This document shows, in pieces, positions 39,251 through 48,316 of a stretch of 64,000 bases of DNA. Below the pieces are notes generated by a model, which ran no database searches, was not told the origin of the DNA, and worked only from the letters and a program-made list of their open reading frames with translations. Location: assembly GCA_947643415.1 (NCBI GenBank), contig CANRWA010000007.1, positions 1 through 64,000 on the forward strand, read 5' to 3'. Each line of letters begins with the position of its first letter. Position 1 is the first letter of the stretch. Position numbers and translations under genes: made by a program. This DNA is from an uncultured Clostridia bacterium (lineage in GTDB: Bacteria > Bacillota > Clostridia > Lachnospirales > Lachnospiraceae).

Positions 39251-40562
39251 CTATGTAGGGATATTCAATTTATTCATATACTGCTCCCTTTCCTCTTCCG
39301 GAATCTTTAAAGCAGTCATTGCCTGTTCTGGTGTCATATTAGTAGAGTCGATTAAATTTTTGAGAGACATAAGGATGCCTTGGGATATCCCCTGAGATAT
39401 TCCCTGTGACATGCCTTGAGACATGCCTTGGGATATCCCTTGAGATATACCTTCCCTGAGTCCTTCGCGTATAGCATTCATTTTTATAATCTGGCTGTAA
39501 CTACCCATACTATTCACCTCCGTTTTTACTTTATCGGACATTATAATTCCAAATTCTTTTTCAAAAATATCTATCTTTTCTGCTGCGCTCTTTTTCGATG
39601 AAAAGAAAATAGCAAGTAATCTGAGTAATCCGATGCATTGTTCATCATCTTCCTGTCCCAAACAGATCATAATTACCGTGAGCAAATCGTAATTTTCCTT
39701 TTTTATGACAGATGTTCCGTATAGTTGATGTTCACCGAGACAGTAAAGATTGATACTGTTTTTCAAATATTTTGGGGGAGCTGTACAGATCCATATGCCA
39801 TATACTTTCTCCAGTTTTTCATAGTGGCTGTTGCTGAAGACAGTTCCATATTGTGAGGATATCGCTCTGCACCCATATATGCTGCGTTTGATTAGTGGGT
39901 AACCGGGATAGAAATCATTTTGGCTTTCTATGGTTATGTACATGTGGACGATTTTTTCTTTTATAGCTCAACGGCGCCAATTTGAACCCGTTTCTATCAC
40001 TGCTATTTTGTGAATGCGTGCGTTAGTTTCAATCGCCGTAGCCACCGCTACGACTCATTCAACTGCCTTCGCATTCGCAAAATAACAGTTTAGAAATCTC
40101 CGACCGTGGATGGTGGATTTTGGCGAAATACAAGGCTGGAGGACGCAGTCTTGCTGACGCAAGACAAGGACGAAAAACACAGTAGTTCGCCAAAATACGC
40201 CGTCCACGGCGGGCTCAAATTGGCGCCGTTGAGCTAAGTGGATGGATAACCTTAAAACTGATATCATAGGTAATAGTTCCTTCCAAAATGGAATTGTTTT
40301 CGTTTCGAATGCCTGTGATAAATTCTTCCGGTTTTGGCACATCATCTTGATGGACAGGAACGGAATTTATGGATGGATCTCCCTCTATGTAATGTTGTTC
40401 AATTTCCTGTAAACTGCAGTTCTTAAATTCTTCCACACAAGTTTTCAAAATCTGTGCAAGAATACTTCTATGAGAGAGGAGTTTTTTACATAATGCATCC
40501 AGTGAATTGTCCACAGTGTCAGACGTTTGTATCAATTTTGTGAGTAAATTGTTCTGTATCAT
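39251..40562 (-). pseudogene. Rpn-like PD-(D/E)XK nuclease gene split by a MITE-like element
   Basis: On the minus strand the gene starts at 40562 (AAGGAGATTA before the ATG) and reads to 40237 as an N-terminal half ending TYDISFKVIHPL. It resumes after the inserted element with IKEKIVHMYITIESQNDFYP and runs to 39251. Joining the two halves across one copy of the TA duplication restores one frame of about 347 codons. The D of TYDIS and the E-x-Q of ITIESQ would form a PD-(D/E)XK-type site, and the insertion falls between them. The tail holds a run of GISQGMSQ-type repeats, frequent in this family. Without excision the protein is broken. Confidence 0.85.
39966..40234. mobile_element. 269-bp MITE-like element with TA target duplication
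   Basis: The ends are inverted repeats of 24 bp (core GCTCAACGGCGCCAATTTGA), flanked by TA on both sides (39964-39965 and 40235-40236). Inside are two long imperfect hairpins: one with arms around CTATTTTGTGAATGCG / CGCATTCGCAAAATA (about 39992-40099) and one with arms GGATTTTGGCGAA / TTCGCCAAAATA framed by CCGTGG / CCACGG (about 40104-40208). There is no coding capacity. A TA duplication is typical of IS630/Tc1-mariner-type transposition. A lone end of the same family is at 48278. Confidence 0.85.
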
Positions 40563-40890
40563 TAATCTCCTTGTATATATAGTAACACATCTTAAAAAGA
40601 ATTTCTATATATAATAGAAAAAGTTTTATTTTTGCAGTTGGATGTACGATATTTTGGTTATTATCTTAGCAGAGAAACCAGGGAGGCGCTATGTTATATA
40701 GTAACAAAGTGAATTCAGGTTCTTTATGAAAAATGATGAAAATCGAGCGCATTGCGCTTTGAATAAAGAAAATAGGGCGTCCTGCGCTAAGGAATTGTTA
40801 AAAGTTCCCTAGTGTACTGACCTGTTCATTTAGCTGAAGATGAACAGGTCAATACACTAGTTTAGCGCAGGTTGTACTAGTCCTATAGTT
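40563..40890. other. Non-coding interval with a nested palindromic element (40781-40871)
   Basis: The outer arms CCTGCGCTAA (40781-40790) and TTAGCGCAGG (40862-40871) enclose a small hairpin GGAATTGTTAAAAGTTCC (40791-40808) and a long one with arms TAGTGTACTGACCTGTTCAT (40810-40829) and ATGAACAGGTCAATACACTA (40840-40859). No open reading frame of note. The first inner hairpin resembles the palindrome at 46117-46136. A further small stem (GAGCGCATTGCGC) is at 40745. Confidence 0.7.
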
Positions 40891-48277: not shown

Positions 48278-48301
48278 GGGTTCAAATTGGCGCCATTGAG
48301 C
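48278..48301. mobile_element. Solo end of the 269-bp MITE family
   Basis: These 24 bases match the terminal repeat of the element at 39966-40234 at 22 of 24 positions against its right end and 23 of 24 against the inverted left end, and are followed by TA. Only one end is present, 6 bases after the spoIIP stop. Confidence 0.75.
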
Positions 48302-48316
48302 TAAGATAAGAAAATA

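Follow-up and report, generated by a model that had tools for sequence, protein, structure and literature searches.

A structured module found across the phylum between differing transposon ends, and its two inverted copies in a TA-flanked MITE of a Lachnospiraceae genome

The two long hairpins of a 273-bp miniature inverted-repeat transposable element (MITE) from an uncultured Clostridia bacterium of the Lachnospiraceae belong to a structured module, new to this analysis, that occurs phylum-wide between many different transposon ends. The element lies in a stretch of 64,000 nucleotides (contig CANRWA010000007.1, positions 1 to 64,000 of the forward strand; hereafter the window) from a genome of 4.6 Mb in 230 contigs. 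An initial annotation of the window had described the two hairpins as unusual for a simple MITE, an impression now accounted for by their being two inverted copies of one structured and widespread module. In the reading considered likely here, a non-autonomous, TA-targeting element would be moved in trans, by cut-and-paste, through the action of an IS630/Tc1-type transposase, and would have entered a TA within a nuclease-like gene. Far from being filler, its body is a pair of inverted modules of a kind that keeps its structure throughout the phylum while the terminal repeats around it vary. One strand of the module probably folds, forming a hairpin in which the non-canonical internal loops (tandem G.A pairs and an AAGG/AAC loop) are fixed, and this fold would help the element itself, either in being moved or in being tolerated. 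The features concerned are as follows.

39964..40236, no strand assigned: two-module MITE, 273 bp with the TA at both ends counted; five full copies in its own genome
39964..39990, plus strand: left terminal inverted repeat, 27 nt, from comparison of the arms
40210..40236, minus strand: right terminal inverted repeat, 27 nt, from comparison of the arms
40003..40085, minus strand: structured module, copy 1; 86.8 bits with covariance model R3, against 4.1 bits for the plus strand of the stretch
40116..40197, plus strand: structured module, copy 2, diverged and inverted; 31.1 bits with R3 (E 3.3e-8 in 601 bases)
40237..40562, minus strand: N-terminal piece of a PD-(D/E)XK / Rpn-like gene, from ORFs and relatives
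39251..39963, minus strand: C-terminal piece of the same PD-(D/E)XK / Rpn-like gene, from ORFs and relatives
48282..48303, minus strand: solitary end of the same MITE family, with one mismatch

The element and the gene it interrupts

The make-up of the element is that of a MITE, as the initial annotation had proposed from its inverted ends, flanking TA and lack of coding capacity: it is short, non-coding and multi-copy, and is bounded by terminal inverted repeats. The arms are complementary at 26 of 27 positions (96%), the outermost 22 nt are the same at the left and right ends, and TA forms both termini. No ORF of at least 60 amino acids lies fully inside the element, into which two ORFs extend (40055-40345 and 40215-40562). 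Folded as DNA, its plus strand reached -86.1 kcal/mol (z -13.1) and, folded as RNA, its minus strand reached -146.2 (z -13.2), with none of 200 shuffles equalling the value in either case.

Other copies, for which a search had been proposed, were readily found. With up to three mismatches allowed, the 22-nt end was located at three places in the window (0.00 expected) and gave 135 matches genome-wide (70 + 65), as opposed to none with a backward-read control. The five full 273-bp copies in the genome share 98-100% identity, a sign of recent movement, in agreement with the recent insertion that had been postulated. The element was matched at E 1e-5 in 11 of the 61 genomes compared, all 11 (its own genome among them) belonging to the same genus, and an exact-match scan of GTDB r220 with a 24-nt end returned 38 stretches, the source titles of which name uncultured Clostridia, Roseburia, Lachnoclostridium or Eubacteriaceae assemblies. 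Carriage as plasmid or phage cargo was rejected on a blastn search with the window element (E 0.01), which gave no matches in plasmids (72,556 records) or phages (50,697 records).

Many of the copies read out are short, having 38, 51 or approximately 60 bp between the same ends, and resemble by eye internal deletions between short repeats. We read these short forms as the probable decay of an unstable palindrome, rather than as separate mobile forms. The 38-bp form is identical at six places (L027-L031 and L039), its joint lying at CGCCGT, which is found near both element ends; these six remnants could have arisen by deletion between CGCCGT repeats, or else be tiny mobile forms. A separate neighbour some 570 bp from the element, a 50-bp near-perfect palindrome (40810-40859, no strand assigned), has ends resembling those of the IS630-type elements of the same genome and represents a minimal MITE of another end type.

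The reading of the flanking ORFs as one interrupted gene is well supported. The two minus-strand pieces amount to 108 codons (N-terminal) and 237 codons (C-terminal); when each was searched separately, both pieces matched at 15 of the 21 loci examined and the C-terminal piece alone at six. The gene had been expected to be continuous across the insertion point in relatives, and of the 15 relatives matched by both pieces, 14 (all but L228) do have them in a single frame. The further claim that excision would restore the gene stands as regards the frame, since taking out 271 bases (the element minus one TA) puts the N- and C-terminal pieces in a single frame on the minus strand, but one codon more is left than in the relatives: the distance between a Pro and an xSQ anchor is 13 residues in the window after removal under the TA model and 12 in all eight comparable relatives, the comparison taking in relatives with Pro and xSQ and leaving out four more junctions of a distant type without the Pro. 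The three relatives scanned whole score 18.4, 24.6 and 25.7 bits with PF12784 (PD-(D/E)XK transposase), under its cut-off of 27.4, and TIGR01784 (Rpn) matches the C-terminal piece and one relative weakly, far below cut-off. The C-terminal part of the C-terminal piece (window 39251-39943) also bears a run of QGISQGMSQ-like repeats, with a weak match to FliH models.

In line with the earlier assignment to a Tc1/IS630-style mechanism, two kinds of site support the targeting of TA: nested junctions, and empty alleles of a sister element, four in number. A single TA is common to two abutting element ends at six junctions in five loci, a count from which looser matches in the same listing were left out: an A-type end meets another A-type end in L002 and L098, a variant end in L100 and a B-type end in L186, and a TA is shared on both sides of an IS630 copy in L101. 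The sister element, a one-module relative, fills one and the same site in two genomes and is absent from it in four, with one TA at the joint in all four empty alleles, where the left flank is poorly conserved and the right edge alone is exact; these empty alleles occur in species of the same genus. Duplication of TA for the window end type is seen in the nested junctions only, the empty alleles being those of a related end type.

Fold, covariation and strand of the module

The matches of R3 to both hairpins establish the 273-bp element as a pair of inverted modules, R3 having been built from matches around the window's genome only and module copy 2 being outside the sequence set used to build it. 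Close inverted module pairs are also found in L084, L212, L213, L216 and L217. Parts of the first hairpin recur in elements with quite different ends, and 15 module stretches from such elements align gap-free (alignment A2, from which L076, one base short, was omitted and in which L113 was kept despite its differing loop). Read on the minus strand of the window, the 5' side of the module consists of an outer stem, AAGGC, a 4-bp stem, GAAYGAG and a 6-bp stem with a GGTG-type loop, and the 3' side of CGANTGA, the 4-bp stem, AACGCA and the outer stem. Where GAAYGAG faces CGANTGA, an A-U and a varied pair are enclosed by two G.A/A.G tandems. The 4-bp stem differs by family (AGTT/AACT, GGCT/AGCC, GGAT/ATCC or GCTT/AAGC), and across the 95 rows of a wider set one of its two middle pairs is Watson-Crick or G-U 36 times and the other 39 times, with mostly G.A and A.G in the remaining rows.

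The stems of the module change by compensation while the internal-loop bases hardly vary. In A2 (15 rows), both sides change in 12 of the 19 pairs, with 52 double-change cells against 16.3 when shuffled and a covariation score of 0.495 against 0.159, or at most 0.083 when slid; further pair types, a weak measure, were reached by 85 of 500 shuffles. Alignment A4 (98 matches), which was fitted to the model and therefore favours a covariation result, has 84.5% of cells paired against 60.9, both sides changing in 19 of 19 pairs, 420 double-change cells against 126 expected and a score of 0.602 against 0.192 (attained in 0 of 500 shuffles, and at most 0.073 when slid), the count of pairs with double change again being a weak measure (13 of 500 shuffles). 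As the sequences are related, these covariation counts are not independent. Among 64 rows of less than 90% identity, the loop bases are A in 63, G in 62 and G in 62 on the 5' side, and A in 63 and C in 62 on the 3' side.

The strand test relied upon was symmetric scoring outside the modelled part. In the outer stem and ends of 64 elements, outside the modelled region, G.U outnumbers A.C by 142 to 69 (36 versus 10 elements), and in the strictest set (65% identity step, 28 elements) by 66 to 31 (14 versus 3 elements), the sets of 64 rows or elements being those left after removal of near-identical rows. This excess indicates that one strand probably tends to fold, whether in RNA or in single-stranded DNA. 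G.A is also more frequent than C.U in the outer stem (159 versus 20), while the two are level in the terminal repeats (25 versus 22). G.U and A.C are likewise level inside the module region (106 versus 99); the 47 rows of alignment A3 show no preference (31 versus 25), and the 42 versus 19 obtained from 64 A4 rows come in good part from one column. Sense versus antisense folding energy is not independent evidence, because the rows were chosen by the sense model.

Since a G.T mismatch is mild in DNA as well, the same excess is compatible with a module that would act as single-stranded DNA, namely as a strand-specific hairpin, read during replication or by a recombinase that recognises hairpins, on the pattern of integron attC sites or REP elements. 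The strand-specific fold with its fixed unpaired bases, the very strong palindromes and the recurrent 38-bp derivatives would all suit such a role, whereas the TA-ended terminal repeats and the TA target fit IS630 cut-and-paste; on balance, it is regarded as unlikely, and we think that the fold acts as RNA more probably than as single-stranded DNA.

An RNA could also be of use to the host if it regulated neighbouring genes in cis or served as a site of processing, in which case host selection on those genes would maintain it. In keeping with this, the module is structured with one strand favoured, no ORF spans the element in any of 85 loci (by mechanical ORF calling), and precedents for processing or regulation at the RNA level are given in PMC2229807 for Correia repeats (RNase III) and ERIC (RNase E). 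Selection of this kind is, however, at odds with the orientation of the flanking genes, which shows no preference at the 85 of 98 module matches used for the count (both neighbours sense at 18, both antisense at 24, mixed at 14 and 11, and 18 without a called neighbour), as well as with the patchy presence of the module across genomes and the empty alleles in same-genus species, and a host function is accordingly held to be improbable. Since the fold is kept while the ends differ, and has no preferred orientation towards neighbouring genes, it would rather benefit the element, and we think that the module serves the element's own spread.

Distribution, ends and transposase partners

The module is far more widespread than the end family of the window element. 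At a threshold of E 0.01 per genome, covariance model R1 detected it in 38 genomes out of the 392 searched in the order, which represent 23 of 173 genera; about four of the 38 may be chance. With R2 and a threshold of E 0.001, 23 of the 398 genomes searched in the phylum gave a match, and these fall in 18 of 267 genera. Paenibacillus cellulosilyticus is a named carrier outside the Clostridia (56.2 bits with R3). Against Rfam 15, the best match inside the element in the window stretch was 16.8 bits, as compared with a cut-off of 200, and nothing reached the gathering cut-off within the element at 12 other element loci. No paper on a module of this kind in Bacillota was recognised among those listed by searches of open PubMed Central papers. 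At L277, a T-box leader match on the minus strand (1330-1651, 55.4 bits, below cut-off) spans the site of a module-bearing element, and a tRNA gene match is present at 1761-1832; the leader may have been the insertion target of this element.

TA-ended inverted repeats were found at the expected spacing around 50 of the 94 module matches tested for ends (four of the 98 being excluded for short flanks), compared to 0 of 94 in controls displaced by 300 bp, and the strict rule found no ends at 44 of the 94. The resulting elements range from 145 to 170 bp, 34 of the 50 being 162-165 bp in length. At the L274 module stretch, the best TA-ended repeat gives 135 bp, with ends TAAATAAATTTTA. The ends fall into 21 clusters by a simple 14-nt rule. 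With single linkage that tolerates shifts, the number is 12 at 65%, 16 at 70% and 19 at 75%, falling to 5 at a loose 60%. As judged by sequence comparison, the body of the module is conserved while the ends differ, through either swapping or faster divergence.

With just five single-link clusters at the loose setting, the differing ends may belong to one diverging family instead of having been swapped, and this lowers the probability of a bolder proposal, in which the folded module, not the transposon ends, would be the unit under selection. The module, whether a mobile RNA of small size or a DNA hairpin specific to one strand, would then be shared with Correia repeats and have had many transposase partners across Bacillota, and its G.A pairs and AAGG/AAC loops would bind a conserved factor, either of the cell or the transposase, thereby promoting movement; such a unit is conceivable, though doubtful.

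Two IS630-type transposase copies reside in the same genome as the window (L102 and L101), with end types TAGTGTACTGACCTGTTGATAT and TAGTGTACTGTACCGTTCATAT, respectively. The ends of L101 agree with those of a module-bearing MITE (L079) in genome G017 of the same genus, those of L102 with another (L089) in a genome of that genus, and in G331 an IS630 remnant (L164) carries the ends of that genome's own MITE (L149). Three MITE end types thus match IS630-type elements, the window end type not being among them. The full-length transposase with the same ends for which the initial annotation had suggested a search was not found: no transposase with TAGCTCAACGGCGCC ends was recovered, the two IS630-type copies of the genome having other ends, and a PF13358 match is absent in 13 of the 18 module-bearing genomes tested. 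End pairs 1.5-3.6 kb apart were noted in L061, L062, L069, L189 and L194 (52 loci scanned). A full transposon was rejected in L061 and L062, the two of these five loci in which ORFs were read, as the ends there are those of distinct short elements or enclose ordinary genes. Trans-mobilisation by IS630 enzymes is supported for some end types, and we infer it for that of the window.

A simpler account would have the element as an ordinary IS630 deletion derivative: the body would be leftover IS DNA, without a role, and its palindrome either ancestral or a product of chance. The TA target, the IS-like ends and the three end types matched by IS630-type elements agree with this. IS630-family insertion sequences (PF13358) share the TA and terminal sequence with those three MITE end types, but differ in that the two copies in the same genome are without the module (R1 gave no match, and unfiltered R3 at most 11.0 bits, which is background level), so that the account is already strained; together with the occurrence of the module with 12 to 21 end clusters, the covarying stems and the nearly fixed loop bases, this renders it very unlikely.

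Relation to known small repeats

Like the module elements, the Correia (NEMIS) repeats of Neisseria are small, TA-flanked and palindromic, and their CAAGGCG and CAACGC sit where the module has its AAGGC and AACGC loops. In a N. gonorrhoeae record, R3 gave the Correia repeat 22.9 bits (E 2.3e-4 in 16 kb), in an alignment that skipped the centre of the Correia hairpin; the background was at most 13.0 bits outside known elements in 61 kb of Clostridial control DNA, the composition of which is not matched to Neisseria, and a 30.4-bit match in that DNA lies inside an element of the window's family. Under strict filters, whole-record scans of the Neisseria and Cupriavidus records with R3 gave no candidates. 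Correia repeats differ from the window element in their length (about 107 or 155 bp) and ends, and the window element lacks the Neisserial terminal repeat. We lean, with some reserve, towards a common origin of the module and Correia.

An unnamed repeat of Cupriavidus metallidurans reached 22.0 bits with R3 with all stems aligned, and has a Correia-like core between other ends; present at 17 places in one megaplasmid record, it is unlike the window element in being about 119 bp long and high in G+C. Of its relatives, that of Eleftheria scored 12.2 bits, which is background level, and those of Paraburkholderia gave matches at 0 of 3 loci. A Correia core between other ends was observed in Cupriavidus, Eleftheria and Paraburkholderia replicons (L301 and L302).

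A review of bacterial MITEs that have TA termini and form imperfect hairpins (PMC2229807) describes RUP of Streptococcus pneumoniae as a MITE with IS630 ends at TA; by that description, RUP resembles the module elements in its MITE nature, IS630 ends and TA. ERIC (IRU) of enterobacteria is also a TA-flanked imperfect palindrome, module-like by eye. It was rejected as a member when R1, R2 and R3 gave no match to the ERIC stretch at two E. coli loci with filters off, and the probability of a common origin with the module is low. For one E. coli ERIC copy (L268, 1459-1582), the Rfam model V_AS5 (Vibrio RNA AS5) gave 46.9 bits, short of its gathering score.

The naming of bacterial MITEs has proceeded one species at a time, with their ends as the basis of classification. 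Given a structure that is conserved across a phylum while the ends differ, several MITEs thought to be unrelated, perhaps Correia among them, may constitute one superfamily, which, if so, would have a function in the body. Why long imperfect hairpins are so common among the small repeats of bacteria is an old question, which thereby becomes testable.
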